A DNA stretch of 64,000 nucleotides. It comes from Ulota crispa (lineage: Eukaryota > Streptophyta > Bryopsida > Orthotrichales > Orthotrichaceae). Position numbers and translations under genes: made by a program. Position 1 is the first letter of the stretch; each line of letters opens with the position of its first letter. Under the pieces are notes generated by a model that saw only the letters and a list, made by a program, of their open reading frames with translations, did no database searches and was not told where the DNA came from. Below are positions 13,869-48,036 of this stretch, in pieces. The stretch is from the NCBI GenBank assembly GCA_963920765.1, contig OY987248.1, forward strand, positions 10,698,539-10,762,538, in the 5' to 3' direction.

Positions 13869-14115
13869 TTAACCCCCGAGCCCCAAGCCATATTCATTCA
13901 AATCCATACCCTTGTATACTTAGTCCAATAAAACTATTACCTAAGTAGAGTCAAATAGTTTGAATTTTTTTGAGTGGTAGTAGACACGTGCTTAGAGGTA
14001 CATGAAAAAGTACAAGTCCTTTGACTTTACCATTAAGAAGAGGATAAGAGTCAAACATGCACATTTTTAAAAACTGAGCGACCACATTTGGGCTCTTGGG
14101 GCGCTCAGGGGTTAA
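13869..14115. mobile_element. TTAA-flanked MITE, CCCCTGAGCGCC family
   Basis: Left end TTAA-CCCCCGAGCCCCAAG, right end (reverse complement) TTAA-CCCCTGAGCGCCCC. Both ends abut TTAA, the target site of piggyBac elements, whose termini also begin CCC. 247 bp with no coding. Belongs with 17106–17885 and the end at 34573. Confidence 0.6.
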
Positions 14116-14489
14116 TTAGCAATGATCAAAATGGTACACATTAGAGGTCCTTGCATTTGTCATTGTCATGTTATAATACAATTTCCATCACCAAATCCTT
14201 TTATCATGTAGCATGGTACATTTGAGTACTTCACACAAGGTAGAGACCCTTTTGTAAGTACCTTACCTATGCTTCTCCTACCTAAAGAAGTATGGTAATG
14301 TATTAGAGAAGGCCTTCTCATGAGCTCAAATTTCAATAGGCTACATGCCTACATGTCATTGATACAGTGTTGTACAAGAACCTTCGAGTAATGTTACATA
14401 ATCCTTGTTTTTGCATTCCAAACAAGTTTGAATAACAAAGAATATAAATGGTATTTTAATCTCATATTGTTGGTATTTGATTCTCATGC

Positions 14490-14690
14490 CATCTCAATCA
14501 ACCATACCAAATTTTGGTTACTAAAAATCAAAATCCTATTTTTGGTAAATAGTTTTGCATCAAAATCATGGTTTTACAAGAAAGTTGATTAAAACACATT
14601 GGTGATGAATTTTTCAGATTTGATTGCACGGATATGTAGGAGACATTCATGTGCACATATATTCTTTTAACAAACATCTACAAAAAGTCC
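14490..14690. repeat. Single-arm fragment of the 26–28 kb foldback family
   Basis: Matches one arm of the palindromes at 26.0–27.9 kb, for example GGTAAATAGTTTTGCATCAA, then CATGGTTTTACAAGAAA and GGTGATGAATTTTTC. Only one arm is present, so it is a truncated copy. Confidence 0.6.
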
Positions 14691-15264
14691 AAAACTTTGT
14701 CAACAGAGGTGTGCATGACCAAATTTGAGTCAATAGTCTCACTTACTACCTCTTTCCTCTTTTAAATGTTGTACATGAAAAATTGATGGGGGGTACACAT
14801 GTCATTTAGCCATAGGTGGTTCAAATTTTCCAAAAATTTGAAGAAGGTACATGTGTCACTTTACCTTTGGCTCATGAAAATGAGACAAGTGTTTCAAAAT
14901 GATGTTCACCCCCACCCCGTACTTGTAGTTGTGTAACATCACTTTGGCTTACAAAGAATAAGGGATAATTTAAATCTGTTCTAGTGATCACAATCAACAA
15001 TAGTGATTTACTTTTTTTTATTCGATATCCATGGCACTAGAGATGGGTTGTTGGCCCTTTTAGTATGGTTTTTTTTGTAAATTCTTCCCTGTATGAGTGT
15101 AAATTGAGTCGGGTTGTTAGCCTTTACCAGGGGATAGTGAAGGGTTGTGTAAGATTCAATTCCTATATCCAAAAATGCACCAGTAAATCAAAGTTTAAAT
15201 CTAAAGCAAAAAAATTTAACGTTAGAGGATTCTAAGTGGTGAAAGCTCCCCTTTGAAAATAACT

Positions 15265-15698
15265 ATAGTGCATGCCACCATAAACCAACAAATATTTCAC
15301 CACAAAATGTCAAATAGTGGTCAATTTTGGGTGCTATCACCGTCTTTTTGACAAATGATAATTCCAATTCGTTTTTGTAACTTTTTTCTTAAGATCTCCT
15401 TGCTTAAAGTTACGAAGAGTTCAACTTATTGAAAGATTTAAAATTTCAAGAAGTTTCATCTTATTGAAGGCTATTACAACATAAAACAACAAAGATCTAA
15501 AAGCAACATGAATTATTCATAACAACCCTTAATAAGTTGAAACTCTTTGTAACTTTAAACAAGGAGATCTTAGGAAAAAAATTACAAAAACGAATTGGAA
15601 TTATCATTTGTCAAAAAGACGGTGATAGCACCCAAAGTTGACCACTATTTGACATTTTGTGGTGAAATATTTGTTGGTTTATGGTGGCACGCACTGTA
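15265..15698. mobile_element. Foldback MITE, 434 bp
   Basis: Arms 15265–15430 and 15531–15698 are near-perfect complements (ends ATAGTGCATGCCACCATAAA and its complement) around a ~100-bp loop. High arm identity suggests it is fairly young. A degraded relative lies at 48976–49180. No obvious target duplication. Confidence 0.75.
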
Positions 15699-16479
15699 TC
15701 AAGTGTGAAGAACGATTATAGAAAGAAATTTATATCAGAAAAGGTTAAAAGTAAGAGGATAAACCGGTGAGCATTGGAAAATATCCAGACAGCTTCCACG
15801 AAAGGAAGAAACCATCTGCACAGCTTGAATGTGCATTTAGGATATGATTTTAAGTCTAAAACTAGTAGACCTTACCAGCGTTTTTTTTTTTGGGATTTTC
15901 GCTAGGTAGAGCGACACGCACCCCACTTGCAAGCAGGTAAGGAAAATTTTGACAGATTCATCGACGTCTGCTTGTTCATCCATAAATCTATTAATTTTTG
16001 TAACTTTCATCCAAATTTTGGCGAATATGCTGCAAACTTTGGGAGGGGTTTAGCGAATTCATCCATTTTTTTAGAGATTTTTTCTAGTGTTGTGTTTGCT
16101 AGGCCGGTTTCAAGGTAAGATTTAGGCAACTATTTGCCCAGAAAATTTATGCTAGACTTTACCCTAAAGGTCCAAGCTGCGTTTTCAGTTTTCACCAAAA
16201 ACTGTCTAAGACTGTCATTTTTAGAGCATCAATCAAATTTGAGAACAAAACATTTTTATACACATGTAACCAAGGGATCTTGTTGTAGAACAATTTCAGA
16301 AGGTGTGGAAAAAAATCTCAAAATTTCCCAAAGCATGGATTGAAAGATACAAAGGTTTGAATATTCAAAAACGTTTTCTTATGGGTCTTGTGAAAAATTG
16401 GGCAACAACCCTTCAGAAGGTGAAGTTTCTAAAGAAAAAAGGTCAAGTAGGTGGTGCTTGTCTAGATTTTTTTTCCACT
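15699..16479. other. No recognisable gene
   Basis: Two open frames of 60–70 codons near 15.9–16.3 kb have no recognisable domain. Nothing else supportable. Confidence 0.4.
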
Positions 16480-17060
16480 TGAGTAGCATGCATGTTAAAA
16501 AAAATTCAAATCATTTGAAACTGTAAAACACATGAAAAGAAAGTAGTAAGTAAAAAAAAGCAGAGAATGATTCAAAACACTAAATTGCTAAGAATTTAAC
16601 CATGGAAATGAAAAATGCCAATCCCAACAATTGTGATATTTTAACAAAAATTCACATCCTTTGATTATTATTTTTCAAAAATATTGAAAATTGAGTAAAA
16701 TAAAGGATTACAAAATTTGTTTTAGAGTAAAATATTCATAACTACCCACAAACAAAAACTCCTCATAACTATCATCTCAATGATAAAAATGAAATGATTC
16801 AAAGCTTTCCACATACAAATAAATCTCTTTAATCAATTACAATTATTTTTTTTGAAAAAAATGATTTTTTAAAGCTGCATAGATTGCCAGCTACGTGAAA
16901 AAAACAACTCAATCGATCATGACTCTTTAGTCTTAGTTTACCCAAAGTTCCAAATGTGATGAAATTTAATGCATAAGAAATATATTCCTTCTCCTCACCT
17001 TCTATTAAAACTTCAGCAAAGAAAATGAAAATTTCAAATTACATGTACCTGCCCAAATTT
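16480..17060. repeat. Decayed relative of the CCCCTAAAGG element family
   Basis: Shares with 22010–22350 the series CACTAAATTG, AAAATAAAGGA, CATAACT plus CCCACAAAC, and ATGATTCAAAGCTT in the same order and spacing. The TTAA termini are not found, so the ends are lost or it is an internal fragment. Confidence 0.5.
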
Positions 17061-17105
17061 GCTATGTTACCAAAAAAAAATCCAACTTAATTAATTATTT
17101 ACGGG

Positions 17106-17885
17106 TTAACCCCGGAGCACCCTAGTGTTCCATATATTGCCTCCCCTTATTTAAAGCCTTGTTTTGAGGCACTGGATCTTACTTTTTGGTCTTGCTACAA
17201 ACTACAATTATGAAAGTATTCAAGTTGTCCATGTCAATGGAGTAATGGTGACAAAAACTAAATTGTTGTACAAGCGCTGCAAGAGATTTGATTTGGTGAA
17301 ACACTATAAGGGGCAATAGGGATGTGGTGGCAAGTAGCATTTTACAGGCTGCAAGAGGTCAATATTCCTTGCAAGCTTCCTTGTGTAAGCTTTGTGGTAG
17401 CGGGAAAGTTGTTGGCAAGGGTTCAAGCATGTTCTAGATCCTTATTATGGCAACCGTCACCAACTGTGCCGATCATTGTTTTCCATGCAATAGCCATATG
17501 AAGCCCTAAAACTCGACATAAAAAGAAGTGCAATCTTCAATAATTTACAAGTGTGTGCAACTGTGCATTCACATCTAATCTTGCTACTCACAAAATTTGA
17601 GATGAATCCGGGGCTTATAGAATTTTGTAAAAATCATCAAATAGCAACTACCTACCAAAAAATGAGATTTTGTCATCACATGTTGTTTGATCAAATGTCA
17701 TAGTCTCCCATCTCCCGCAGTGAATTATTCCCAAAATTTGCAAGCCATTTTCTAAGTAGGTGTTCCACTATTTTCAATGATCACTTTTTGTGGATCATCC
17801 AATTGATTGAGATACAATGCATCAAAGTTGGCGGTCTCCAAAAACCCTGATTTTGGTGAAAATGGCATGGGCGCTCAAGGGTTAA
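17106..17885. mobile_element. TTAA-flanked element, CCCTTGAGCGCC family, 780 bp
   Basis: Left end TTAA-CCCCGGAGCACCC, right end (reverse complement) TTAA-CCCTTGAGCGCCC. TTAA at both ends and a CCC start fit a piggyBac-like non-autonomous element. The inside has no domain-bearing frame. Confidence 0.6.
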
Positions 17886-18048
17886 CCAAGGAAGTAACCA
17901 ATACTTGGTAGTGTAGCAGATATAGCTACAACTACAAGTGATGATAGTGAGCAAGATAAGTAGGGTGTATCATCTTTTCTAAAAATGAACGATTTGAATA
18001 TTTCGTAATAGTAGTAAAATTGGAGCCTTCATGCACGAGCATTCAATG

Positions 18049-18256
18049 TAAGGTAGGTAAACACAACACCGCTTGTCAACCTAATGTTGTTCAAATGTAG
18101 GCCTTCAGCTCATTTTAGAACTCAAATCTAGACCCTCCATATATAACTTATCTTCAAAAATTCTCAGGAGGGTTTAGATTTGACTTCTAAAATGAGCTAA
18201 TGGCCTACATTTGAACGGCATTAGGTTGACAAGCAGTGTTGTGTATACCTACCTTA
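18049..18256. mobile_element. Foldback MITE, 208 bp
   Basis: TAAGGTAGGTAAACACAAC at the left is complementary to GTTGTGTATACCTACCTTA at the right. Arms of ~80 bp (including CAACCTAATG and AATGTAGGCC) surround a short loop. TTA/TAA at the outer edge could be a PIF-type target duplication or part of the arms. Confidence 0.75.
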
Positions 18257-18398
18257 ATTGTCAACTTTTGTTGCACAATATGTATGACAAAACTAAATCT
18301 GACTTTCTATAAACAAAATCTCCTCCTTTTAGTCTAAATCCTATTATTTCAAGTACAAAAAGATCAATTCTTCCAAGTTTCAAACCCAACTTGCAGTT

Positions 18399-19336
18399 TT
18401 AACCCCTAAAGGCCCAAGTGGCCCCTCAGGGGTCAAGTGGGGTTTTGGGCATATACTTACAGCTAAACTACATTGTGATATTTTCTAAAATTTCTATGAA
18501 AGATGCAAAATTCAAATATCTATGCGGGCATATAATTTTTTCTTAGTTCCAACATTTATTGAAGAAGTTATGCATGAATTTCTAGAAAGCGGAGGAGAGC
18601 GAGCAATCTGGGCAATCCAAAAAAAAATTTAAAAAATTGAAATTTTTTGAAATAAAATTTTGAAATTGGTTCTTTGGATTTACATATATGTGAGAAGCTT
18701 TGAATCATTCAATTTTGATTGATGAGACAAAAGTTATGAGAAATTCTAATTCTCCAAACCTCCATTCCTTTTTCCCCTTGTAAAATTTGGTGCTTTATTT
18801 TTTTAGCTCTACGTGTATTTGTTTTTTAACATTTTTTTTCTAGGTTATAGTAGACTAAGATCCCTTTGGATCAAAGTAATTCAAATTTTTGAATTTTACA
18901 TAAATCCTCCAATTCTGCGTGATGCATATGCAAATTTCATGGCCTTACAGCATTGTAAGATTTTACAAAGTATGATTCTCAACTTGTAGTCATTTGAAAA
19001 TTCTCCCACACTTACCTAACTTGGTCTTCTACATGGAAAACATAAATCTCAACTTTGCATAAAGAAACTTTTTTGATATAGGAGCGGTCAATGGCTTTTG
19101 AAATTTTTGAGCAGCAAAGAAAAAAAGAAAAAAAATCACTTCAGATGTCAATATTTCACTCCTCTACATTCAGAAGGAGCTGATTTTTTCACATGAGTAC
19201 CTCCCATAGTCTAGGGCAAGATCTTAAAGTTGGGTCTTCAACAAAAAAAAAAATTCTGCCTTTCTTCTCATTCCCCCATAAGTGGCAGTTTTCAATGACT
19301 TTCCCATAAAAAAGGGCTTGGGCCTTTAGGGCTTAA
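18399..19336 (+). mobile_element. TTAA-flanked piggyBac-like element, 938 bp
   Basis: Left end TTAA-CCCCTAAAGGCCCAAG, right end (reverse complement) TTAA-GCCCTAAAGGCCCAAG, so the terminal inverted repeats are almost identical and TTAA is on both sides. Subterminal marks are GGGATTTTGGGCATxTAC-like near the left end and AGTGGCAxTTTTCAxTG near the right. Reference copy for the CCCCTAAAGG family (also at 21.6, 38.4, 40.9 and 47.2 kb). Non-coding. Confidence 0.7.
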
Positions 19337-19459: not shown

Positions 19460-20373
19460 TTAATCCTTTAAAGACCACACACATTTTCCCAAAATCCTTT
19501 AGAAACCAGGGCAATAAAATTAGATGTACATTTGAAACAAATGTGGACCCAATTTGAATAATCCAACTGTACAAATGTGAAGGACACCTTGTTTGTTGTA
19601 ATGTATAAAAATTTCAACTAGATCTAACATTGGAGGTGAAATATTATAATGATTGAGTGAGCCGTATATGGAAAATCTCTAATTTTTCATGCTTGTGTGG
19701 TTTTGAATGTTAACTCTTCATGCAAGCTTTGATTGAGAAGAGCCTTACATTTCTAGAAAGCGGGGTTTCCCACCTTTCCAACAAGACCAATTTCACTCAA
19801 AATAGACAAAGATAGCAACCACAAGGTGTAGCTAAGTGGACAAAAAGGGTCAAAATCCCATTTTCTTTACTACCCTAAAATGGTTCTACAAGAAATTTGA
19901 TAATTGTCACAGAACATCCAATTGGTAAAAGCAATCAAAAATTGGCCTTAAATGTAGGATTATTATTTTTTAAATAAATTGATAGCATCATTTCAATGGA
20001 TTCATAAATAGTACAATTGTACTACTACCATATAGAGAAACAATTCAAGCATGTTCCTTGAGCAGTTTGAATTTTTTTTAAGATTGCACAATTGAAATAT
20101 GGCATTTTTCTTGAATGATTGATGTATTGTGCTGTTGCTTTGATCCATATTTGACCAAATATGGATACGTCTTTTGAGGCCATGATGTATAAACACCATT
20201 ATTTATCAACTCCCATATCTGATTCTATTGTTGTTTTTTGGGTTGGATGCAAAATTCTTGTGATTGCAAGCATTCTACAAGAACAATTTCCAAATTGTTG
20301 AGCAATTTTACTATATAAGCCAAAAACTACTCTCCCAAACCAAAATATGGTTTGGTGGTCTCTAAAGGGTTAA
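19460..20373. mobile_element. TTAA-flanked element, CCCTTTAGAGACCAC family, 914 bp
   Basis: Left end TTAA-TCCTTTAAAGACCAC, right end (reverse complement) TTAA-CCCTTTAGAGACCAC. TTAA flanks and CCCTTTAGAG terminus; a separate family from its neighbours but the same architecture. No coding. Confidence 0.6.
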
Positions 20374-20432: not shown

Positions 20433-21034
20433 TTAACCCCTAAAGGACTGTTGTTCCTTAAAGGGATAAATGGGATTTTGGGCATGTACCTATGGTTAAA
20501 CTACTTTGTGCAATTTTTGAAACTTTTATGGATGATGAGGAATTCAAAGATTTACATGGGCATTTAATTTTTTCTTCATTTTGACATTTATTGAAAAAGT
20601 TAAAAATGAATTTTTAGAAAACATGCAAGATTAGCCAGCCCAAAAACTTCTATAATAATTGCATTCTTTTTTCTCAAAACTATACTTACCCGCAAACTAA
20701 AACTTCTCATAACTTTCACCTCATTGATCAAAATCAAATGATTCAAAACTCCCACCTATATATAAATATAAAGAACCTATTTTGTATTTTTTTTTTAAAG
20801 GATCCAATTATTAAAGAAGTTTTTGGGCTAGCTGATCTTGCTCGTTTTCTATAAATTCATTTTTCACTTCTTCAATAAATGTCAAAATGAACAAAAAAAT
20901 CAGATGCCCACATAAATCTTTGAATTCCCCATCATCCATAAAAGTTTAAAAAACACATAAAGTAGCTTAGTTGTAAGTACATGCCCGAAATCTCTTATGT
21001 CCCCCAAAAGGGCCAGCAGTCCTTTAAGGGTTAA
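20433..21034. mobile_element. TTAA-flanked element with two copies of one end, 602 bp
   Basis: Left end TTAA-CCCCTAAAGGACTG, right end (reverse complement) TTAA-CCCTTAAAGGACTG. Both halves carry the same subterminal block (GGGCATGTACxTAxxxxTAAxCTACTTxxTG), so the element is close to a full palindrome made of two 'left' halves of the CCCCTAAAGG family. Confidence 0.65.
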
Positions 21035-21630: not shown

Positions 21631-22572
21631 TTAACTCCTAAAGGCTTAAGCAGTTTTCTCTAGTGAAAGTCACCGTTAACTGTCACTTTGGTGGGAATGG
21701 GTAGAAAAGTAGGAAATAAAGTTTGTTTTGCAAATCCAACCATAGGATCTTGCCTTAAACTAGAAGAGGTACTTGTGTGAAAAAATCAAGTCATTCTAAA
21801 TGGAGAGGAGGGAGATATTTACATCTAAAGTGAAAAAAAAAGGCTTCTTTTTTTGTTGTTCAAAAAAATTCAGAAGCCTTTGTTCACACTTACATGAAAA
21901 AAATTACTCTACACAAAGTTGAGGTTTATTGTTTCCATGTAGCAGACCAAGTTAGGCATGTGTGCAAGAATTTTCAAATCAATTGGAACTATACAACACA
22001 TGGGGGAAAATAGTAAGTAAAAAGAAGTAGAAAATGAGTCAAATCACTAAATTGTTAAGAATTTAATTATTAAAATAAAAAATGAAAATCCCAATAGTTA
22101 TAATATTGTGATAAACAATCTACTTCCTTAGGTTTAGCTTTTTTTCCAAAATATTAAAAATTGTGGAAAATAAAGGACTTCAAAGTTTATTTTAGAGTAG
22201 AGAATCCATAACTGCCCACAAACTAAAACATCTCATAACTTTCATCTCATCAATTGAAGTTGAATGATTCAAAGCTTCCCACACATGAAAAAAATCTAAT
22301 GAACCAATTTCAGATTTCTATTTTTAGAAAATTCAAAATTTTAAGAAGTTTTTGGGATGTCCGGATTGCCCTCCCTTCCCCATGCACCAGAAATTCTTGC
22401 ATATCTTCTTAGTCAAATGTTAGAATGACAAAAAAAAATTAGATTCCCGGGTAGATCTTGGAATTCCACACCTTTAATAAAAGTTTTAAAAAATCACAAA
22501 AACTAGATTAGCTATAGGTACATGTCCAAAATCTCAACTGTCCCCGGGGACAGCTGGGCCTTTAGGGGTTAA
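21631..22572 (-). mobile_element. TTAA-flanked piggyBac-like element, 942 bp, reversed
   Basis: Left end TTAA-CTCCTAAAGGCTTAAG, right end (reverse complement) TTAA-CCCCTAAAGGCCCAGC. Inside it reads as the reverse of 18399–19336: AGTxACxGTxAACTG near the left and a GTACATGTCCAAAATC block near the right. TTAA on both sides. Confidence 0.7.
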
Positions 22573-23771: not shown

Positions 23772-24109
23772 AGGAAAAGTATCAAAATTAGGCCTGACAA
23801 TTGGCCGTATTTTGAAAACAATCATGACAATTTCTAAATATAAAAAATAGGCCTCATCTGGTTCTTGAGTTTTTGCAATTGATTTCTCTAGGAACTTTTT
23901 TTGTTATTTTTTCAATATCATGTTATAAATATTGAAAAGTTAGATTTTCAACCTGCTTTTCAATCAACGTTTACAAAATGCAAATGGTTTTTTCTCATTT
24001 CAATTGGCTAGCTTTGAAATAGTTGTTGGTTCTTCATGGACCGCCTCACTTTATATAAAAAGTAGGCCTTGCAACTAAGGTGACCAAAATTTTGTGCATG
24101 TTTATATAT

Positions 24110-24539
24110 GAGAATTGATATGAGTACACCTGGGGTTTGATATATGCACACAAGGAGAAGGGTAAATTTTAGATAATTACCGTCAAGTCATCAACAAGCT
24201 GAATTTGGAAAGTTCAAATTTAGATTTGGATTTAGAGACCTTGATTTAGTCTAGAACCACAATGGAGGTTACAATTGAATTATTCCCTATGGAAAAACTT
24301 AGTTAAGGAGCAAATTATTACTTTTGCCCTTGTTTGTAAAAAAAGTTAAGCTTTTCCATTGTGCATAGTTCAATTGTAAAATCCATTGTGGTTTTAGACT
24401 AAATCAAGGACTCTAAATCCAAATCTAAATTTGAACTTTCTAAACTCAGCTTGTTGATGACTTGATGGTAATTATCTAAAATTTACTCCTCTCCTTGTGT
24501 GCATATACCATACCCTAGGTGTACTCATATCAATTCTCA
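24110..24539. mobile_element. Foldback core, GAATTGATATGxGxACACC family
   Basis: Ends GAATTGATATGAGTACACC and its complement. Next comes GGGGTTTGATATATGCACAC on each side, then matching arms through TTTAGATAATTACC and AACAAGCTGAATTTGGAAAG-like sequence. Same family as 32467–32873 and 34996–35405. It sits on the symmetry axis of the 23.8–25.3 kb palindrome and has no direct target duplication. Confidence 0.7.
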
Positions 24540-24741
24540 TATATAAACATGCACAGAATTTTGGTCACCTTAGTTGCAAGGCCTACTTTTTATATAAAAT
24601 GAGGCGGTCCATGAAGAACCAACAACTATTTCAAAGCTAGCCAATTGAAATGAGAAAAAAACCATTTGCAATTTGTAAACATTGGCTAAAAAGCCAGTTG
24701 AAAATCTAAATTTTCAATATTTATAATATGATATAGAAAAA

Positions 24742-26039: not shown

Positions 26040-27040
26040 AAATATCCTTGTACCATAATTTTCATGTGTTTGTACTATTGTACAATGGCCTTGAATTATT
26101 TTTGTCGCCCTCTGTTTTCTCACTTAAAGGTCATGTCATGTTATGTTTTGAAATTGAGGTCAATCGGGCTTTTTTGATTTTCAATTTTTTATATCTCATT
26201 CTTGCTCCCAATGTCAACCAAGCATACCAAAATTCAATCTCAAAAAACTAAAATCCAAATTTTGACAAATTGCGTTGTGTCACAAATTAAGATTTTACAT
26301 GGTTTTACAAGAAAATTGATTGAAAAACATTGATGATGAATTTTGGAGATTTGATTGTATGGGCCCGTGTATAGGGAACACCCATACACACATCCATATG
26401 CACATCTTCCATACTAAAAAAACCCCTTAAGTAAATAGAAATTGATTTTCATCAAGTTTAGTGTGACAATGTGATATGTCCAAATCTTGTAAAATATATA
26501 TTTTTAATATTTAGTTAGCTTTTCACCAAATAAACACAAAAACATGTTCAAAGTTACAAACTTAGTCATAGTGTATGAGTAAAATAGCAAAATCTGATTA
26601 TTAGAAGAACATATCTATTTTACAAGATTTGGACATATCACATTGTCACTCTAAACCTTATGAAAATCAATTTCTATTTACTTAAGGGGTTTTTTTAGCA
26701 TGGAAGGTGTGCATATGGATGTGCGTATGGGTGTTACCTATACACAGGTCCATGCAATCAAATCTCCAAAATTCATCATCAATGTTTTTCAATCAATTTT
26801 CTGGTAAAACCATGTAAAATCTTGATTTGTGACATAGCACAATTTGTTAAAAATTGGATTTTAGTTTTTTGAGATTGAATTTTGGTATGCTTGGTTGACA
26901 TTGGGAGCAAGAATGAGACATAAAAAATGCAAGATCAAAAAAGCCCAATTGACCTCAATTTCAAAACATAACATGACATGACCTCTAAGTGAGAAAACAA
27001 AGGGTAACAAACTGTACTCAAGGGTATTATACAGTAACAC
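26040..27040. repeat. 1.0-kb palindrome, first of an adjacent pair
   Basis: Arms of ~400 bp, with TTTTCTCACTTAxAGGTCATG at the left and its complement near 26990, enclose a ~150-bp loop near 26490–26610. Two open frames that look alike (26.0–26.25 and 26.86–27.05 kb) are merely the two arms read in opposite directions. The inner arms (CCAAGCATACCAAAATTCAA to CCCCTTAAGTAA) match the inner arms of 27026–27911; the outer arms differ. Confidence 0.75.
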
Positions 27041-27911
27041 GCAACCACAAACCATCCCCCCTCCTTCCAGTAAATTTTTATTAACAATGTTACTAGGTCA
27101 ATTAGCATTTGATTATCATGCAAATTTTTTATTTAATGCTTACCCCCAATCCCAATCAAGCATATCAAGATTCAACTCCAAAAGTCAAAATCCAAATTTT
27201 GGTAAATAGTTTTGTGTCAAAATCATGGTTTCATAGGAGAATTGATTGAAAAATATTGGTGATGAATTTTTGAGATTTGATTGCACGCATATGTAAGAAA
27301 CATCCATATGCACATCTCCCATGCTAAAAAAACCCATTGAGTAACAAAACTTTGAATCTCGAAGGATTCATTGTAATATGGGATATGCTCAAATTTTGTC
27401 AAGTAGATATTTTTTTATGATAATCAAGTTTTGCTACTTGACTCATTTATTGTGATTAATTTTGTACTTTTGAAGATGGTGTTATGTTTATTTGGAAAAA
27501 GCTAGCTAAAAAATAAAAATATGTAATCTACAAAATTTGAGCATATCCCATGTCACAATGAATCCTTTGAAATTCAAAGATTTGTTACTCAATGGGTTTT
27601 TTTTTAGCATGGAAGATGTGCATATGGATGTTTCTTACATACCATGCAATCAAATCTCAAAAATTTATCACCAATATTTTTCAATCAATTCTATTGTAAA
27701 ACCATGATATTGACACAAAACTATTTACCAAAAATTGGATTTTGACTTTTGGGGTTGAATCTTGATATGCTTGATTGGGATTGGGGGTAAGTAGTAAATA
27801 AAAAAATTGCATAATAATCAAATGCTCAAATGCTACTTGACCTAGTAACATTGTTAATAAAAATTAACTGGAAGGAGGGGGGACGGTTTGTGGTTGCCGA
27901 GTACTGTACAT
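27026..27911. repeat. 0.9-kb palindrome, second of an adjacent pair
   Basis: Left GCAACCACAAACCATCCCCC and right GGGGGGACGGTTTGTGGTTG mark the outer arms; symmetry runs inward over ~380 bp to a loop near 27420–27540. Its left end overlaps the right end of the preceding palindrome. The inner arms belong to the same family as that palindrome and as the single arm at 14490–14690. Confidence 0.75.
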
Positions 27912-30959: not shown

Positions 30960-31328
30960 TTAACCCCTAAACGTCACGCGGACAAAAAATGTCCGCTCTC
31001 CAACAAAAAATGCTATGTACTACATATAAAGGTTGTTTTTCACTTGATTTTTTTGCAAAAGTCATCATACATACATGGTGTATCATGAATGGCAAAAAAA
31101 ATCTCAGCTAATGTACTCATATTTTATGACAACCCAAATTGTGAGAAGATCCAGAGACACTGTGTTAGGTCCCATGCTGCCCTTCTTGCAATTTTTATGA
31201 GGGTACCATGCACTGTTAACTTTTGCAATTTTAGAAAACAATATTTTAGTGGGTGGGCACCTGCCACACCACTCTAAAAACCACTGTAGAGGGCAAGCCC
31301 GGCCACTCATCCGTTGTTTAAGGGTTAA
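30960..31328. mobile_element. TTAA-flanked MITE, CCCCTAAACGTCACG end, 369 bp
   Basis: Left end TTAA-CCCCTAAACGTCACGCG, right end (reverse complement) TTAA-CCCTTAAACAACGG. TTAA on both sides. A hairpin GCGGACAAAAAATGTCCGC lies just inside the left end. Confidence 0.6.
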
Positions 31329-32178: not shown

Positions 32179-33160
32179 GGAATTGCTAAATCCATCACAG
32201 TTTTTGCTAGATACACCACATGGTCCACCTTGGACACCACAGGCTCCACCAGAGACCTCATTCCACCCATTTCCCATCCTAGATCCCATCTCACTCATTT
32301 TCATCATGATTTTTAATCCAAGCATCAAAATTTAAAAAGTAAATTGTTTTTTAATAGATTGATTTTAGTTTCACTCAACTTTTTTCACATTTTATTTCGC
32401 TGACTTTTAATTGCTTCTCGGCTCTCCCCAAGCATTTTTTTGAGAAGTTTCTTAAAGAAAAAAAAAGGAATTGAGATGGGCACACCCGGGGTTTGATATA
32501 TGCACACCCCTTGGGGTAAATTTTAGATTTTTACCATCAAAAAGCTGAATTTGAAAACTTTTAATTCAGATTTGGACTTAGAGAACTTGTTTTAGTCTAG
32601 AGCCATAAAGGAAGTTACAATTGAACAACACCCAATGTAAAAGCTTAGTATTTTTAAAGAAATAAAAGTAAAAGTAAAACTTTCCCCCCAACTAAGATTT
32701 TACATTGGGTGTTGTTGAATTGTAACATGCTTTATGGCTCTAGACTAAAACAAGTTCTCTAAGTCCAAATCTAAATTAAAAGTTTTCAAATTCAGCTTTT
32801 TGATGGTAAAAACCTAAAATTTACCCCAAGGGGTGTGCATATATCAAACCCCGGGTGTGCCCATCTCAATTCCTTTTTTTTTCTTTAAGAAACTTCTCAA
32901 AAATGCTTGGGAAGAGCAGTGAAGCAATTAAAAGTCAGCAAAATAAAATGTGAAAAAAGTTGAGTGAAACTAAAATCAATCTATTAAAAAACAATTTACT
33001 TTTTTAAATTTTGGTGCTTGGATTAAAAATCATGACAAAAATGAGTGGGATGGGGTCTAGGATGGGAAATGGGTGGATTGGGGTCTCTAGTGGGGCTTGT
33101 GGTGTCCGGGGTGGGCCATGTGGTGTATCTAGCAAAAATTGTGGTAGATTCAGCAATTCC
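32179..33160. repeat. 1.0-kb palindrome with a foldback core
   Basis: Outer arms 32179–32466 and 32874–33160 are inverted copies: GGAATTGCT at the left and AGCAATTCC at the right, then TTTTTGCTAGATACACCACA, CCCATTTCCCATCCTAGA and the complement of each. The symmetry continues straight into the core at 32467–32873. Weak protein-like frames on either arm are mirror images, not genes. Confidence 0.8.
32467..32873. mobile_element. Foldback core, GAATTGAGATGGGCACACC family
   Basis: GGAATTGAGATGGGCACACC and GGGGTTTGATATATGCACAC at the left mirror the right end. The arms include GCTGAATTTGAAAACTTTTA and GAACAACACCCAATGTAAAA. Same family as 24110–24539 and 34996–35405. It sits exactly on the axis of the 32.2–33.2 kb palindrome, without a direct target duplication. 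Confidence 0.7.
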
Positions 33161-34250: not shown

Positions 34251-34539
34251 AGTAATAAAAGGTTAAAATCCAATTACAACTTGAGATGGCAAGGAGTGGC
34301 AACCCAGTGAGAGGATTTTGGAGTTAGTTTTCTTCCTTGTGTTCTTGAGTTTGATTAGCAAAGGTGGGATTGCATTGTGAAGTTGGTGTAAGAATTTAAA
34401 TGCAAGGCTTAGAATTGTTTTGGAAGGGTAAAAATGAGGAGTTTGATCACCAATACTTTTGTGGAAAATTGAAAGTACAACTAAACTACCAGTACATGCT
34501 AAATCTAAGTACGTTTTCTCTATTTTCCAATTTTGAGCT

Positions 34540-34798
34540 CCCATTTATCGCCTATGGGGCGCTCAAGGGTTAAACGACGGGAAGGCCCTTTGCAGCTAGT
34601 ATAATACAGGGTATGTTTTTTGTATTTGGAATGGATGTACACCTCTACTACGTTTGAGATTAACAAAAAAGTTGGAGAATAGATCAATGTGGTTCTAGTG
34701 AGCTACTTGAGATCCCAAATTTTAAAAAAAATTAATGGTAGCAAATGACAATTATACGCCAATGTATATACTATGCCCTATAGTTGTTTAAGGGTTAA
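34540..34798. mobile_element. Element ends of the TTAA class (incomplete)
   Basis: A right end (reverse complement TTAA-CCCTTGAGCGCCCC) stands at 34573; its left partner was not found. A second end (reverse complement TTAA-CCCTTAAACAAC) at 34798 resembles the right end of 30960–31328. The two may bracket a small element of ~229 bp at 34570–34798, but the left terminus lacks the CCC start. Confidence 0.35.
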
Positions 34799-34995: not shown

Positions 34996-35405
34996 GGGAA
35001 TTGATATGTGCATACCGGGGGTTGATATTTGCACACTCCCCTATGAGGTAAATTGTAGATTTCTACCATCAAAAATCTGAATTTGAGAATTTTGAATTCA
35101 AATTTGGATTCAGAGACCATGGTTTATTCTAGAACCATAAAAAAATTGCAATTGAACAACACCCAATGAAAAAGCTTATCTTTTTTTACAAACAAAAGTA
35201 AAAGTAACACTTTTTCCCCTAGCTAAACTTTTTTACTAAGTGTTGTTTAATTGCAATATTTTTTATGGCTCTAGCGTAAACCATGGTCTCTAAATCCAAA
35301 TCTGAATTCAAAATTCTCAAATTCAGATTTTTGATGGTAGAAATCTATAATTTACTTCACTGGGAGTGTGCAAATATCAACCCCTATGTGCACATATCAA
35401 TTCCC
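34996..35405. mobile_element. Foldback element, GGGAATTGATATGTGC family, 410 bp
   Basis: Ends GGGAATTGATATGTGCATACC and its complement; arms of ~180 bp around a short centre. ATAATTTT lies directly on both sides (34988–34995 and 35406–35413), an 8–9 bp duplication. Same family as 24110–24539 and 32467–32873, but here the flanks are not inverted copies, so this is a simple insertion. Confidence 0.7.
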
Positions 35406-37643: not shown

Positions 37644-38191
37644 TTATCCCCTAAACGTCCAATTGATCATTTTTTGGTTGCTGCCCTTTTTTGTGGGCTG
37701 CCCAAGATGAAAAAAACATTTTTTGAAAAAATATAAAATATTTTCATATAAGAAAGCTAAGTCTACTTTCCAACCCAATATGAATCACGTCAATCCAAAT
37801 TAAATTCTATCAAGAATAATTTCAAAGACGAGCATTTCAATATTTGCTAATGTTATTAAGTTTACTATTTTGAGAAACTAATGATATTCTCTCCTTCAAA
37901 AATATTGTATTTTTTAGTTTTAGAGTAGAATGCTTATTTTTAACTAATCATACCAAATTTTAAATTCTATGAAAAAAAAATTGTAATTTTGATGAATATT
38001 AGATGATAAATGCTTCTATATTCATTAAATAAGAGCCAAAAACCTTTTCTAAATGTTTCACTGAATGGAAAATTACTAATCATCATGGTTCTTGTTCTTT
38101 CTTTTGAAGCAAACTTCATCAAAGTTACAAAATTATAATTTTATCATGCATCCATGTTTTACCCTTATCCCCTTGGGCGGTTAGGGGTTAA
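37644..38191. mobile_element. TTAA-class element, CCCCTAAACGTCC family, copy 1
   Basis: Left end TTAT-CCCCTAAACGTCCAATTG, right end (reverse complement) TTAA-CCCCTAACCGCCCAAG. 548 bp, non-coding. The body matches 44357–44887 in reverse. Confidence 0.65.
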
Positions 38192-38420: not shown

Positions 38421-38422
38421 TC

Positions 38423-39375
38423 TTAGCCCCTAAAGGACCAAGCCCTTTTTTTCTTTGAAAATCATTGAAAATTGCCACTTTTGGGGGAATGAGTAGAAAG
38501 GTAGGAAAAAAGTTTTTTTGAAAATTGAATTGTAAGATCTTGCCCTAGACTATGGGAGGTACTAGTGGGAAAAATTTCAGCTCATTCTAGAAGTAGAGGA
38601 GTGAGATATTGACATTTGAAGTGAAAAAAAAGTTTTTTTCCTTGCTGCCCAAAATTTTCTGAAGCCTTTGACGGGTCCTGTATCAAAAAATTGCTCTACG
38701 CAAAGTTGAGGTTTTTTTTTCCCATGTAGAAGACCAAGTTAGGTAAACATGGGAGAATTTTCAAATGAATTGGAGGTGTGCATCATACTTTGTAAAATCT
38801 TGCAATGCCGTAAGGCCATGAATTTTGCATATACACTAGGCAAAGTTGGAGGATTTATGTAAAATTGAGAAATCTAAATTACTTTCATTCAAATGGTTAA
38901 ATCCAAGGAATCTTAGTCTATTACAACTTGGAAAAAAAAAAGTAAAAAAAAATATACATAAAGAACTCAAAAAAGTAAAGTAACAAATTTTACAAGGGGC
39001 AAAAATAATGGAGGTTTGGGAGTCCCATACCTACCCGCAAACTAAAACTTCTCATAACTTTCATCTCATTAATCAAAATTGAATGATTCAAAGATTTCCA
39101 CGTATTTAAAAATCTAAAGAACCAATTTCAGATTTTTATTTTTTAAAAATGAAAATTTGAATTTTTTTGGGCTGCCCGCCCTTGCCCTTTTGTAGAAATT
39201 CATACATAACTTCTTCAATAAATGTCGGAATGAAGAAAAAATTAGATGCCTAAGTAGATCTTTGAATTCTCCACCTTCAATAAAAATTTCAAAAAATCAC
39301 AAAAAGTAAATTGGCTATAGGTACATGCCCAAAATCCATTTGTCCCCGAGGGACAGTTGGTCCTTTACGGGTTAG
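38423..39375 (-). mobile_element. piggyBac-like element flanked by TTAG, 953 bp
   Basis: Left end TTAG-CCCCTAAAGGACCAAG, right end GTCCTTTACGGG-TTAG. The body is a reversed CCCCTAAAGG-family element (compare 21631–22572). TTAG rather than TTAA stands on both sides, which shows that the duplicated target is four bases long. Confidence 0.7.
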
Positions 39376-40300
39376 GAGGCATGTTGGAGAAATGACTTGG
39401 TCAAAATCGCCAATGGTCAAATGGTGTTGGACTCCTTGTTGGATTGGATTATGAATGTTTGATTGAACTCATTTTTCTTTGCTCTTTTCTTCGTACAAAA
39501 TGCGTGGGGGATGGGAGATTGTATGCCTTCTTTTGAAAGTGCATGCGCAGGACCGCATGGGGATTCACCCAAGGCTCAAAAAGGAATCGAGGGGGGGAGA
39601 CGATATCAAGGCAAGCTAAGGACATGAAAGGGAGGAATCTGCAGTTGCCGCACAATGTCTGCAAAGACTTGAAAGTCAGAAACCTGAATACCTTGGAACT
39701 GATGCAGCACAAATCAGCCTTTTGTACCAGCATGTTGTGAGTGGTGAGTGGTGACTCCCTTTTTAAGAAGGGCGACTTGAACCCCCATTGGAGCTGGCCA
39801 GTGGAAAAGTCTCACGCTTTGCACATGCTCCCAACAAACTGTGAACAAGTCTTAAGGTAGGAGCACCTAATTGCAACATCAATTGTTCTCTGACATCTAA
39901 AATTAAACTTAAAGGAGACAAATTTGCACCCAAACAAGACACAAATGCACCCAAATCAGACACGCAAGTTGACATAAGGGAATAGAAATTGTGTAAGTGG
40001 CAATTTTTAATTGGGTATGATATGCTCTTTTTGTTGTGGTGACATGGTCTTGTTGTCGTTGCTTTTTTAGGGGTCTAGTGTTCACAATAGGTGAATCTAG
40101 GGAGTTACCTTCAACAATTCATAGTTTATTCATACAATCTCAAAAAATTCTGAAAACAATTTTGCTTGAATCTGTACGCATTTCCTAACAAGCACATGCC
40201 ATTACATTCTCAAAAGACCCTCCAGATTACCACATCTAAGGCAAGTGTCGCATTTGGGTGCTTCTACCTTACACAATCTCAATCCTACCTGCCACAAGAC
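39376..40300. other. No recognisable gene
   Basis: Overlapping short frames on both strands at 39.45–39.97 kb have no recognisable domain. Slightly GC-richer than the neighbours around 39530–39660. Confidence 0.4.
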
Positions 40301-40606
40301 CTACACTGAATATTGCATTTAGGTTACCTTGGCAATTAGGTTTTTTTACTCGGGTAACTTACCTCATGACTCCTCACTTGGCCACTTGGAGGCACATGCA
40401 ACTCACTAAATATCTAGATTTCACATGGTGTGTGATTTGGAAGCCACTAATTCGTCTTTTGTAGCTTCATTGTTGTTGATAGGCTATCTAAAAATGGTTT
40501 GTTGCAGTGATTTTTGATGAAAAATACTGTAGCAGCACTGAATATTTATATAGTGTGAAATGTCAAAAAGTTAGTGTGGGGCAACCTAAATGCAATATTT
40601 AGTGTA
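40301..40606 (-). mobile_element. 306-bp MITE, CTACACTGAATATTGCATTT family, copy 1
   Basis: Begins CTACACTGAATATTGCATTT then AGGTTACC, and ends GGCAACC then TAAATGCAATATTTAGTGTA. Terminal inverted repeats are ~28 bp. It abuts copy 2 head to head. Internal mark: CACTTGGCCACTTGGAGGC. Confidence 0.7.
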
Positions 40607-41839
40607 CACCAAATAGTGCATTTAGGTTGCCCCATACTAATTTCTTGACATTTCACACCGTTTAAATATTTATTGCTACTATAATAAATTTCAATAATAA
40701 TTATTGTGACAAGTAAATTTTAAAGGTCTTGGCAATAAAAACACAGCTCCAAAAAGACAAATTAGCAATGTTCATGTCATAAACCATGTGAAATTCTAAT
40801 AGTTAAAGAGTTACATAAGCCTCCAAGTGGCCAAGCCATGAGTCATGAGGTAGCTTTCCATGGTAAGGCAACCTAATTGTTAACCCCTAAAGGACCACTT
40901 GTCCGTTCAACAAACAAATGGGATTTTGGGCAGGTATCTACAGCCTCAATTTTTGTCCTAACTTTTTGAAACTTTTTTTGAAGATAGGAAAACACATTAG
41001 CTTTTGGAGAATCTAATTTTTATTCCAATTGATGCCAAGGAGCAAAAGTTATGCCCAAATACGCACAAATTTGGAGACTCCGGGCAGCAAAAAAAATTCT
41101 TATAAAACTTGAAAAAAAATTCAGTTTTTTTTTTCTTATAAACTATATCTTTGTCTACATCTGAAGCTTTGATTCATTCCATTTGGACTAGTTATGAGAA
41201 AGTTATGGACAATCTTGTTTTTTGAGCAATTCAAGCATCTTCTTGAAAAAATAACTTATAAACTTCATTTTTGAATGCAAGTATAACATTTTTTCAAAAA
41301 AATTGTTTGAGAGTGTGAAGTTTGCATTCTAGAACAATCTCACCATTGGGATTATTGTGTTTCAATTCCATTGCAGGGTTATTAGCAATTTAAGTTTTTG
41401 TTCAATTTCATATCTTCTTCTACCTAATGTTTTTTTTAAAGAATGAAAATTAATTATTTTTAGTTTTTAGTTTTTCCCAAGTTTACCAACTCAACTTCCC
41501 ACCATGCAAAAATAGAATTCCAAATTCTGTGGTGCAAAAAATTTAAGTTAAAAAAGTTCAAAGTCAAATAATCTAGTTAGTCTAGGTGCAAAAAAAGCTG
41601 CTTTTAATACTTTAAACGCAAATATCTTCCAATCTGTGCAGTCAAAGTTCTTGAGTTTTGTACAACACACTCCTATACTAGTCTAGTACAAGATCCTATG
41701 GTCAAATATGCAAGAAGATTAATTTTCAAACTTTTTTTACTCTTTGCCATAGAAGTGGCAATTTTGAGTGTCTTTTGACAAAAATAAGGCCATGGTCCTT
41801 TAGGGGTTATGGCAACCTACATGCACTATTTGGTGTAAG
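40607..41839 (+). mobile_element. 306-bp MITE family, copy 2, interrupted
   Basis: Begins ACACCAAATAGTGCATTTAG and ends TGCACTATTTGGTGTAAG. Its body is the reverse of copy 1 and the same direction as 43242–43546. After TTGGxAAxAAxxACxCxGCTC-type internal sequence it is split at 40880 by a 931-bp TTAA element; without that it would be ~305 bp. Confidence 0.7.
40880..41810 (+). mobile_element. TTAA-flanked piggyBac-like element, 931 bp, with empty site
   Basis: Left end TTAA-CCCCTAAAGGACCACTTG, right end (reverse complement) ATAA-CCCCTAAAGGACCATGG. It interrupts a 306-bp MITE. The uninterrupted relatives at 43507–43527 (CCTAATTATCAAGGCAACC) and, reversed, at 40330–40345 show a single NNAA tetramer where this copy has TTAA on the left and TTAT on the right. 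That is direct evidence for insertion with a 4-bp duplication. Confidence 0.8.
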
Positions 41840-44356: not shown

Positions 44357-44887
44357 CTAACCTCTAAACGCCCAAGGGGTAAGGGCAAAACATAAATGCA
44401 TTATAAAATAATACTTATGTAACTTTAATGAAGTTTGCTTCAAAAGAGAAAACAAGAATCATGATGTTTAGTAATTATCCATATAGTCAAACATTCAAAA
44501 AAAGTTTTGGATTTTTATTTAATGAATTTAGAAGCATTTACCATTTAATATCACCAAAATTATAAATTTAATTCATAGATTTTATAGATTGGTATGATTG
44601 ATTAAATATAAACATTCTATCGTAAACTTCAAAAATGCAGTATTTTTGAAGGAGAGAACATCATTAGTTTCCCGGAATAGTAAATTTTACAGCACTAGCA
44701 AATATTGAAGTGTTTGTCGTAGCAAAATTCTCCTTGATGGAGTTTAACTTGGAATGACAAGATTCAAGTTGGGTTGGAAAGTAGACTTGATTTTCTTTTG
44801 AAAAAATTAATTTTTTTTTTCATCTCAAGCAGCTTGCGAAAAACGGGCAGCAACCAAAAGATGGTCAATTGAGCGCTTAGGGGCTAA
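44357..44887. mobile_element. TTAA-class element flanked by CTAA, CCCCTAAACG family, copy 2
   Basis: Left end CTAA-CCTCTAAACGCCCAAGG, right end (reverse complement) TTAG-CCCCTAAGCGCTC. CTAA on both sides gives a matched 4-bp duplication. The body is the reverse of 37644–38191. Confidence 0.65.
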
Positions 44888-45310
44888 TAAACACCCAATG
44901 TGACATCCAATGTTTTATAAAAAACCTCTTTAGCAAGCTAAAATGCCAAAGCTCCATCTAATCACAAATCATTAAACACTCAAATAACAGTTTATAGCTA
45001 AATGATTGGGGCTCAAACGGAATTGTTGAAAAAAAGGGTTGGGAACATTTTTAGTTTCTCCACCCAATCACAAATTGTTAATTGGACATACTTATAGAAA
45101 AATATAATAAAATCAAAAATTCTTATTTTTTTGTTTACATAATACATTCAAGAAAATTTTATTTAGTTATTTGCTTATATTTGCATAGGGGACTTAAAAT
45201 GCGTTGTTGTTCACAAAGACAATACTGGTTGGTGAGCAAATATTCTATGATAGTCGTGTGGAGTCGTGGACTTGAAGAAGATGTAAATAATGGTATCGAC
45301 AGTCTCCAAA

Positions 45311-46172
45311 TTAACCCCTAAAGGAGTTGATCCATTTTGAAATGGTCAAACTTCATGTTTAAGCTTAATTTTTCCTTTTAAATTGTGTTTAAACAAATAT
45401 TTTTTAATTTTTTTGCTTGAAACTATGGATGATATATCATTGTAGGAAATTTCAATTTGTTTCATGAAAAATTGTAATTGTTATCATTTTTCTCAAAAAA
45501 TGAACATAAATAGGTTAAAATAGCAAAAAAAATTCAAATTATTAAAATTTTTTCCAAGAGGTACAAGCAACATTAAAGATTAGTGTGAAAAAATTCCAAT
45601 TGGTTATTTCATTATTTACACCCAAAATAGCCACAAAAAAAGAATTCAAAGTCAAATTTGACTATCACATCAAGTTTATCCTTATATTTAATTAATTTAT
45701 AAAATTTCAATATTTTTGCAAGAAGACACATTCAATTTCTACCTTTATTGTTTTTTTCAATAAATTTGATGGAATATCTGAATTATTGTGATTTTTTAAA
45801 GCTAAATGTGGAAATAAAATCATATCAATCAAAACATATGTTAAAAAAATATGTAATTTCTACCATAAATGAATGGTAGAATGAGAAACATAGTTTTGTA
45901 GTTTATATTTTAAAACACATTTAAAATGTAGAAAATATGAATGAAAAACACACCATATTGTGTTATTTGGATTCTAACACTTGGAGATTTTAACAACAAT
46001 GACTCTTTTGATTTTTGACATTTTCCAAAAAAGTTAAATGGAACAAAAAGAAACTTGTCAAGCTTTAGTTTTTTAGTTTGAATCATGCACCAAAAACTGA
46101 TATTTTGAAAGTTACAATTAGGGTTGACCAAAGCGCACCCACTTTTTGGATGCACAGACCTTTAGGGGTTAA
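45311..46172. mobile_element. TTAA-flanked element, 862 bp
   Basis: Left end TTAA-CCCCTAAAGGAGTTG, right end (reverse complement) TTAA-CCCCTAAAGGTCTGTG. The first ten terminal bases are the same as in the CCCCTAAAGG family, but the interior is different and AT-rich. TTAA on both sides. Confidence 0.65.
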
Positions 46173-47213
46173 AGTGAACGAAGTGTTGAGTTGGTTCAAC
46201 TCTCTAGGCCAGTATTTGGGGAAAGCTAGGAAAATATATATACTGTCACCCGGTTGAAATTGCAAAAAAACTGGTTAAAATTTGAAATTATTTAATAAAA
46301 TATTTGTCAAAAATTTCAAAAACACTAATTACTATATATCTATATTATAAAGCGAGGGCTGCTATGCGATATTTCAAAATTCACTATCAACACCACAAGT
46401 TCAAAATTAGGTATTAGAGAGTGGAGAGGGAGGGTGAAAATTCATCAGACTTTTTTTCTAAATTCTCTATTATGAAAGTTTCTTAGAATCTAAATTATAA
46501 AGAGTAGGTTGTCTGTTTGTCACACAATGGTCAAAACTGCTTGTTAACACCCAAGGTTTTTTCCTTCTTCATATAAAGCATTAGGTGTCTGTTTGTCACC
46601 CAAAATTTGAAATTCAAATTTAAAGGGAGGACATACTTATTACAATATAAGTATAGGAAATATCAAACAAACTAGTTGAAAGTGGAAAATGGAAAATACT
46701 ATATTTTAGCTTGTGTAGTTCAAATTCTTCCCAAACTCTAATCTAGGGCTTGTGAACATATGGAAGCAACTTCTATCTTTGTTGCCCTCTCTTAAAGGAA
46801 GACTCTACAATGTCACAAGGGGTGTCAAATCTTGGTCTTTTTCACTCAATGACTTTGGATGACTTCACCCCATAACTCAATAACTTTTGCAAGTTATTTG
46901 GTTTGATAACTCTATTAGGTACCTTAGGAGGTGTCCCATAATTCAAATAAGTAATGGCCCCTTTTTACAAAAAGTTATCAAGTGATCTTGGAGGATCTCT
47001 CTCTTCCAGCAAGGTTACCTAGTTTGACATTTGCTTATCAACAAGCGCATAGGTAAACGCCTCTTTGACTTGCTCAATGAACACACTACATTATAACAAG
47101 TAGGGCATGATTGTGTGTAGGTTGGGAAGCAAGATGATGGGATAGAGAAAAGAGGAAGGAGTTATGTGGAGGATGATTTTTTTTACTCATACAATATAAG
47201 TTTATGAGGCCCA
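46173..47213. other. No gene; degenerate repeats near 46.3–46.6 kb
   Basis: TCTATATTATAAAGCGAGG (46338) and TCTAAATTATAAAGAGTAGG (46489) resemble each other, and GTCTGTTTGTCAC occurs twice (46511, 46587). A TCT…TATAAAG start is reminiscent of plant Helitron 5' ends, but no 3' CTRR hairpin was found. Confidence 0.3.
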
Positions 47214-48036
47214 TTGACTTCTAAAGGACCATTGTCCTTCTGGGGACAAATGGGATTTTGGGCAAGTGGGCATTTGGATTTTCTTCATTTTGACATTTAT
47301 TAAGGAAGTTATGCAAGAATTTATCAAAACTAGGGGAGGAGGGGCAGTTTGGGTAGGGCCTCTCCTTTGTAAGTGGGTGTTGACTCCAAAAAGGGTTAGC
47401 CTTTCTGGGCACAAGGTGTGGACACTTGGGCAAAGGGGAGTGGAGTGGAAGGAACTCTCCATTCTTTTTGCCCCTTGTAAAATTTGGTACTTTCATTTTT
47501 TAAATAGTTTATATATTTTTTCTTATTTTTTTGTCCAAGTTGTAGTAGGCTAAGGCCCTTGCCTTTCACAATTTAGATCAATGTAATTCAAATATCTGAA
47601 ATTTACATAAATCCTCCAATTTTCAGTAGTGTACTTGCAAATTTCAAGACCTTTTGGCATTCAAAGATTTTTGAAGTATATTCTACACCTTCTGTTGATC
47701 TAAAAATTCTCCCACACATACTTGACTTGATCTTCTATATGGAAAAAATAAACCTTAACTTTGTATAGAGTAGTTTTTTTGCTATAAGAGTGGTCACAAG
47801 CTTCTAAAAATTTTGGGCAAGAGGGAAAAACTTTATTTCTTCACTTTTGATGTTGGTATTTCAATTCTCACCATTTGAAATGACCTAGTATTTTTTCTAC
47901 AAGTATGAGCAAGATGCCAAGATCTTGTGGTTGGATTTTCAAAAAATTGTTTTTCCTACCTTTCTACTCATTCCTCCAAAAGTGGCAATTTTTAGTGAAT
48001 TTTACAAAAAAAAAAGCTTGGTATTTTAAGGGTAAA
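47214..48036. mobile_element. Decayed CCCCTAAAGG-family element, ~820 bp
   Basis: Left part CTTCTAAAGGACCATTGTCC, then GGGACAAATGGGATTTTGGG; right part AGTGGCAATTTTTAGTG near 47985 and an eroded terminus near 48030. The internal order follows 18399–19336. The TTAA flanks are no longer clean, so it is an old copy. Confidence 0.6.

Follow-up and report, generated by a model that had tools for sequence, protein, structure and literature searches.

Elements in the window

The window, a stretch of 64,000 nucleotides (C7:10698539–10762538) in an assembly of 274.8 Mb and 157 contigs, carries 13 non-autonomous elements with inverted CCC… ends between positions 13873 and 48032. A sequence-only reading of this stretch had proposed at least a dozen piggyBac-like elements of 247–953 bp, abutting TTAA or sometimes TTAG, CTAA or TTAT. 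The 13 elements placed here are 239–945 bp long (247–953 bp including both 4-bp flanks), include the four termini named in that reading, and display all of its flank types: TTAA/TTAA in 8 of 13, TTAG/TTAG in one, CTAA/CTAA in one, TTAT on one side in two, and degraded flanks in one. Together they total 9,336 bp, or ~27% of the 34-kb span, with a mean length of 718 bp.

The CCCCTAAAGG element at 18403–19332 (930 bp, flanks TTAA/TTAA) has a right end whose first base deviates, and it is alignable over its length with 38427–39371 (77%) and with the fetched locus L060 (74%). The element at 38427–39371 (945 bp), also of the CCCCTAAAGG type, is flanked by TTAG/TTAG, a direct repeat that is not palindromic. 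A shorter relative of the ~930-bp elements, 20437–21030 (CCCCTAAAGG, 594 bp, TTAA/TTAA), has an interior fold-back with arms inside 20514–20953. Another CCCCTAAAGG element, 21635–22568 (934 bp, TTAA/TTAA), displays the palindrome CTGTCCCCGGGGACAG at +16 to +31 of one end and matches loci L005 and L008 at 79% and 77%, respectively. The CCCCTAAAGG element at 40884–41806 (923 bp, TTAA/TTAT) is nested in another repeat and has a full-length relative in L062 (88%). The remaining members are 45315–46168 (CCCCTAAAGG, 854 bp, TTAA/TTAA) and a degraded CCCCTAAAGG-group element at 47218–48032 (815 bp, TTGA/TAAA).

Elements with other ends lie at 13873–14111 (239 bp, CCCCCGAGC / CCCCTGAGCGCC, TTAA/TTAA), 17110–17881 (772 bp, CCCCGGAGCACC / CCCTTGAGCGCC, TTAA/TTAA), and 19464–20369 (CCCTTTARAGACC, 906 bp, TTAA/TTAA). 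The last has the palindrome CCAAACCATATTTTGGTTTGG at +15 to +35 of one end, and related copies occur at the edges of L052 and L057. The 361-bp element at 30964–31324 (CCCCTAAACG, TTAA/TTAA) has a relative with similar ends at L058 6762–7129 (identity 68.7%). Two more are 37648–38187 (CCCCTAAACG / CCCCTAACCG, 540 bp, TTAT/TTAA) and 44361–44883 (CCTCTAAACGCCC / CCCCTAAGCGCTC, 523 bp), the latter flanked by a CTAA/CTAA direct repeat. Two minus-strand termini, TTAA-CCCTTGAGCGCCCC at 34537–34569 and TTAA-CCCTTAAACAAC at 34762–34794, are unpaired, with no partner end found.

Automatic pairing required an end motif, a flank at most one mismatch from TTAA, an inverted partner within 1.1 kb, and an identity of at least 12/20 between the terminal inverted repeats (TIRs). 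It yields eight pairs in the window and none when the window is reversed, and 60 first-order Markov resamplings average 0.2 pairs (at most 2). Five of the 13 elements (13873–14111, 21635–22568, 30964–31324, 45315–46168 and 47218–48032) fall below this threshold and were paired by hand. Loose pairing that ignores the flank finds only about twice as many pairs as chance (33 in the window versus 17 in the reversed control and 9–22 in 20 resamplings), so the TTAA flank bears much of the evidence. Flank-blind pairs in the fetched loci are TTAA/TTAA in 8 of 14 cases, from a pool that includes loci L001–L008, which were chosen by CCCCTAAAGG.

End sequences across the genome

The ends are abundant throughout the genome when both strands are counted and the reversed pattern serves as control. 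CCCCTAAAGG occurs 18,843 times (control 213) and TTAACCCCTAAAGG 15,411 times (control 1). Tabulating the flanks genome-wide, as the sequence-only reading had advised, places TTAA directly before 15,411 of the 18,843 CCCCTAAAGG sites (81.8%), and the degenerate end TTAACCCYTDRRNG is found 46,840 times against 311 for its reversed pattern. Other classes are TTAACCCCTAAATG (6,367, control 1), TTAACCCCTAAACG (2,002, control 1), TTAACCCTTGAGCGCC (911, control 0), which is related to the ends of 13873–14111, and TTAACCCTTTAGAG (647, control 6). Half of the 46,840 ends multiplied by the 718-bp mean of the window elements gives a rough estimate of ~23,000 element-equivalents and ~17 Mb, perhaps 6% of the genome.

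Ends also pair and delimit copies outside the window. Among 100 listed TTAACCCCTAAATG sites in the first 3 Mb of C1, neighbours closer than 1.1 kb form 23 convergent pairs, one divergent pair and two tandem pairs, and in 14 of the 23 convergent cases the enclosed length is 629–648 bp. A genome search with 45315–46168, in which 40 of 477 candidates were scored, returned 41 matches, comprising 40 long ones (the query itself included) and one 67-base fragment. The long matches span bases 1–854 exactly in 22 of 40 cases and come within 7 bases of both ends in 38 of 40. These copies are 83–90% identical and are spread over C1–C10.

The ends of piggyBac begin CCC, and CCC-starting TIRs are evident here both in the window (eight pairs versus 0 and 0.2 in the controls) and in the excess of convergent over divergent pairs. 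In several end families there is, in addition, a palindrome whose centre lies 24–27 bases from the tip; its sequence is family-specific, and it is often stronger at one end. A palindrome reaches shuffle p<0.05 in 8 of 56 ends, and among 47 non-redundant ends seven strong palindromes are centred at +20 to +30, compared with 13 over 22 other 5-bp bins. The mean palindrome profile is raised just weakly at +25 (z 2.5, with other centres up to 2.8). In piggyBac itself, the inverted repeats measure 13 bp (terminal) and 19 bp (internal) and are asymmetrically placed (PMC2874221). The palindromes offer a suggestive parallel to these internal repeats, and family-specific palindromes at a fixed place in the ends may mark a conserved docking site for the transposase.

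Target-site duplication

One view of the target comes from 40884–41806, which is inserted in a fold-back host repeat (40299–40883) whose paralogues supply empty sites. A 201-base query was made by joining its flanks around a single copy of the tetranucleotide. Two window paralogues match straight across the junction, with TCAA or CCAA replacing TTAA. In the genome, 38 of the first 40 matches cross the junction (53 matches, with 40 of 3,223 candidates scored), and most end at base 157, 27 bases beyond the junction, which is the limit of similarity. Of the other two, one is the window itself and the second a copy at C2:33972292 that ends exactly at the junction. The later 13 matches are weaker and mainly represent the second arms of repeat copies already matched. 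The C2 copy (33972292–33972421) is 94% identical to the host repeat; either the locus was duplicated or this position received an insertion twice.

The two elements with direct-repeat flanks provide a second line of evidence. Extension of the TIRs would yield TTAG and CTAA on opposite sides of an element; the observed TTAG/TTAG and CTAA/CTAA flanks are what a target duplication would leave. The 4-bp duplication characteristic of piggyBac is thus supported by one element through its empty sites and by two others through their flanks, and the TTAA target that had been read from the window alone is borne out. Tourist and Stowaway miniature inverted-repeat transposable elements (MITEs) of the PIF/Harbinger and Tc1/mariner groups, with their 3-bp TAA/TTA or 2-bp TA duplications (PMC10004981), are rejected by the 4-bp TTAA context and the 4-bp difference at empty sites.

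piggyBac transposases in the genome

A genome search for a piggyBac protein, the check proposed in the sequence-only reading, finds at least 120 matches to PF13843 (DDE_Tnp_1_7), the best at E 1.3e-73, from 116 scored candidates of 528 taken at first look. The matches lie on C1–C11, scaffolds of up to 41 Mb, and none of 14 control genomes has one. A stop-free piece of locus L051 matches PF13843 at 8.2e-67. Compared with solved structures, the L051 domain has two matches only: 9c0f, a piggyBat (5.9e-24), and 6x67 (9.9e-20), which is listed as 'Transposase' and which we take to be piggyBac.

Two samples were studied, thirty 4.1-kb loci (L009–L038) and eight extended loci of 7.5 kb (L051–L058). 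Asp occupies the first, second and third catalytic position in 27, 22 and 26 of the thirty sampled domains, respectively, and 20 of the 30 retain all three residues. The domains are diverse, forming 15 clusters at an identity threshold of 60% and 10 at 50%, and 29 of the 30 contain stops, up to 8 per domain. Cys/His-rich tails are visible past the domain in L051, L053, L054 and L055. L065, a promising stop-free candidate for an intact transposase, was rejected, because by eye its reading diverges from that of its relatives at the second catalytic Asp, with stops on both sides.

Some further features of these matches bear on their decay and duplication. Asn occupies the second catalytic position in 7 of the 30 domains and the third in 3, and by eye TGA and TAG stops seem to outnumber TAA stops in the PF13843 matches; both would be consistent with decay through C-to-T mutation, possibly of methylated cytosines. 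Opposite-strand matches with equal or nearly equal scores occur ~14–110 kb apart at C7:18203169/18223004, C10:676128/785346 and C2:36765124/36779670, which suggests inverted segmental duplications or assembly duplicates.

Age and density

Thirteen elements in 34 kb appear dense, and the sequence-only reading had described them as a burst, with the parent transposase probably active here. The window does not stand out, however: it holds 13 degenerate ends against 10.9 expected (P=0.30) and six TTAACCCCTAAAGG sites against 3.6 (P=0.15). For comparison, degenerate ends number 125 per Mb in an arbitrary 48-kb sample versus 170 genome-wide. Nor is recency evident, as full-length relatives are 83–90% identical for 45315–46168 and 74–88% for the other elements compared, and no near-identical subfamily specific to the window was seen among the elements that were compared. 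A recent local burst is therefore very unlikely. Since relatives have diverged by 10–26% and nearly all the sampled transposase domains contain stops, the families compared point instead to several old waves of transposition.

Linking the ends to the transposases

Two loci physically unite ends and transposase. The L053 transposase is enclosed in a 5,738-bp element that has perfect 15-bp CCCCTAAATGCCTAA TIRs and TTAA at both ends, and that of L054 sits in a 5,019-bp element bounded by CCCCTCATCGCC/CCCTTCATTGCC, again with TTAA at both ends. L055 provides a different type of evidence. A TTAA-CCCCTAAAGG end lies downstream of its transposase, and the ~450 bp before that end match window elements 18403–19332 and 38427–39371 at 71–74%. 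L025, L034, L038 and L026 (which is L055 again) also contain parts of this 3′ region, in every case ~1.1–1.3 kb past the domain on its downstream side; the similar distance indicates that the region is proper to this clade of transposases rather than a MITE inserted there by chance. From the other side, the left ~450–590 bp of 38427–39371 are homologous to the 3′ region of L055/L026, L034, L038 and L025. Of the other extended loci, L052 shows one CCCTTTAGCGACC-type end on its 3′ side, and L057 carries a mutated form of that end. A CCCTTGAGCGCC end 2.3 kb downstream in L056 may be part of a separate element, and L051 and L058 have no clear ends.

These links also bear on the choice between superfamilies. 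Kolobok and Sola3 likewise use TTAA targets, so TTAA by itself does not discriminate, and the window elements might belong to one of these superfamilies while the piggyBac genes of the same genome are unrelated to them. Such a coincidence is highly improbable given that CCC ends beside TTAA directly bound the piggyBac transposases of L053 and L054, and that the 3′ region of the L055, L025, L034 and L038 loci is homologous to the CCCCTAAAGG elements of the window.

A telomeric origin of the CCCTAAA core is harder still to credit. The plant telomere repeat is TTTAGGG, and CCCCTAAAGG does contain one such unit, CCCTAAA, which could make these sites interstitial telomere repeats rather than transposon ends. 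Interstitial repeats would not explain why 81.8% of CCCCTAAAGG sites adjoin TTAA, why CCCCTAAAGG terminates a long element with dispersed copies, or why the sister class TTAACCCCTAAATG is paired in inverted orientation at a fixed spacing. The end classes CCCTTGAGCGCC and CCCTTTAGAG lack a telomere unit altogether, and the copy boundaries and empty sites refute the proposal.

Host of the elements

The host of both the piggyBac ends and the transposases is a plant, because 52 of 56 genome matches to the chlorophyll a/b-binding family lie on C1–C9, which also bear transposases; the other four are on C82. This agrees with the earlier impression of a plant-like genome. When one chlorophyll a/b-binding protein was compared with solved structures, the top match was 9vfj, a multi-domain chain whose individual domains score lower, followed by 8htu and 7xqp, both of which we take to be from Physcomitrium. 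The plant is probably a moss. A cluster of chlorophyll a/b-binding genes with similar scores at C4:21391382–21771811 accounts for 8 of the 12 best matches to the family. Although piggyBac typically occurs in animals, fungi and protists (PMC12732532), animal or protist contamination has next to no chance of being the source, as transposases on C1–C11 are interleaved with chlorophyll a/b-binding genes on the chromosome-scale scaffolds C1–C9 and 40884–41806 sits within a repeat that recurs throughout the genome.

Other features of the window

Two protein-coding pieces lie beyond the elements, both on the minus strand: a Transposase_21 (CACTA, tnp2) remnant at 56725–57303 (E 1.7e-45) and a SET-domain protein fragment at 59234–59827 (E 2.6e-6), which is overlapped by an antisense open frame at 59259–59669. 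Fold-back (long palindromic) repeats occur at 15264–15698, 23988–24660, 26076–27036, 27104–27826, 32437–32903, 35039–35364 and 40333–40879, with arms of 106–429 bp and 74–97% complementarity among the 25 longest of 206 pairs. Relatives of several of them are present in transposase loci L012/L053, L022, L034, L038 and L026/L055, and the many matches between these loci and the fold-back repeats probably represent separate nested repeats.

Interpretation

Taken together, these lines of evidence make it almost certain that the window elements belong to the piggyBac superfamily as non-autonomous, MITE-like members and reside in the nuclear DNA of a land plant, which is most likely a moss. The piggyBac assignment made from the window alone is sustained by the ends and TTAA that enclose transposases in L053 and L054 and by the 3′ region that ties a further transposase clade to the CCCCTAAAGG elements. 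In the proposed pathway, related piggyBac transposases encoded elsewhere in the genome would have recognised the inverted CCCYT… ends, bound them, and cut the element out. The excised element would then have been joined into a TTAA, duplicating these four bases. By analogy with the seamless excision of piggyBac (PMC10905368, PMC8086355), TTAA may have been restored at the donor site, which does not imply present activity. We infer that such transposases moved the window elements, and distinct end classes probably follow distinct transposase lineages.

Several observations weigh against this interpretation. The transposase lies between two CCC… ends in only two of the eight extended loci, and a 3′ end is found in only three of the thirty 4.1-kb loci (L009, which is the L054 locus, L014 and L018). 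L055 has one end of the CCCCTAAAGG class, its 5′ end being outside the DNA examined, and a further TTAA-CCC end, belonging to a different class, follows 431 bp downstream. The window itself has no remnant of these transposases detectable by tblastn at E 1e-3 with 30 queries (one of which, L036, was a wrong-strand translation). The genome test that found empty sites for 40884–41806 found none for 38427–39371, only the window's own flanks. Among the at least 120 PF13843 matches none is a complete stop-free domain; ten of 120 are stop-free, the longest spanning 2–340 of 349 positions. The Cys-rich C-terminal pieces of four transposases match no Pfam family above the cut-off. Finally, the 14 control genomes include, as far as shown, no plants, and their lack of PF13843 matches is therefore no test of plant specificity.

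A broader conclusion is favoured with less assurance: at least one land-plant lineage, probably the mosses, seems to have harboured piggyBac for a long time as a major and highly diversified superfamily, with at least 15 transposase lineages in 30 sampled copies. If so, the view that piggyBac is essentially absent from land plants is overturned. A 2008 survey, in the excerpt available, describes five cut-and-paste superfamilies in plants, piggyBac not among them (PMC2528002), a picture changed by the transposase matches (at least 120) and the 46,840 intact-looking ends of this plant genome. Other sources are more inclusive. Statements of a broader piggyBac distribution mention 'plants' (PMC8086355, PMC2874221, PMC10813416), and an angiosperm MITE review counts PiggyBac as one of seven superfamilies (PMC10004981). 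Repeat tables list 1,230 PiggyBac copies (0.00%) in a fern (PMC6890710) and a single PiggyBac element in feather grass (PMC8319324). A literature search that covered few subscription papers found, among the titles listed, none on native piggyBac elements in mosses, which is weak evidence of absence; one apparent hit, in a Niphotrichum moss paper, was the word 'piggybacking'. The question whether piggyBac was inherited from early plants or acquired horizontally can now be tested, as can the influence of a transposon with precise excision on the genome of a haploid-dominant plant. Automated repeat annotation might, speculatively, leave such elements unclassified in other bryophyte genomes.

Comparison with known piggyBac systems

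The elements are of a known kind; their host and scale are unusual. Like piggyBac of Trichoplusia ni and piggyBat of Myotis lucifugus, they combine a TTAA target with a PF13843 transposase and three catalytic Asp residues. They differ in that the host is a plant, many divergent lineages are present together, and non-autonomous ends far outnumber transposase matches. The delimited autonomous copies, at 5.0 and 5.7 kb, are also longer than the 2.4-kb piggyBac (PMC2874221). Animal piggyBac-derived MITEs, such as those of corals (PMC2872659, as cited in PMC9942856), are likewise short, non-autonomous and connected to piggyBac, as far as the available text describes them; the present elements inhabit another kingdom, reach 945 bp, and in some cases are homologous to the 3′ region of transposase loci. 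A parallel in plants is provided by the angiosperm 'PiggyBac' MITEs, which are also grouped by TIR and target-site duplication. Those groups, defined by TIR, target-site duplication and internal sequence, have no transposase named for them in the excerpt available (PMC10004981), whereas here transposase loci share their ends with the MITEs.

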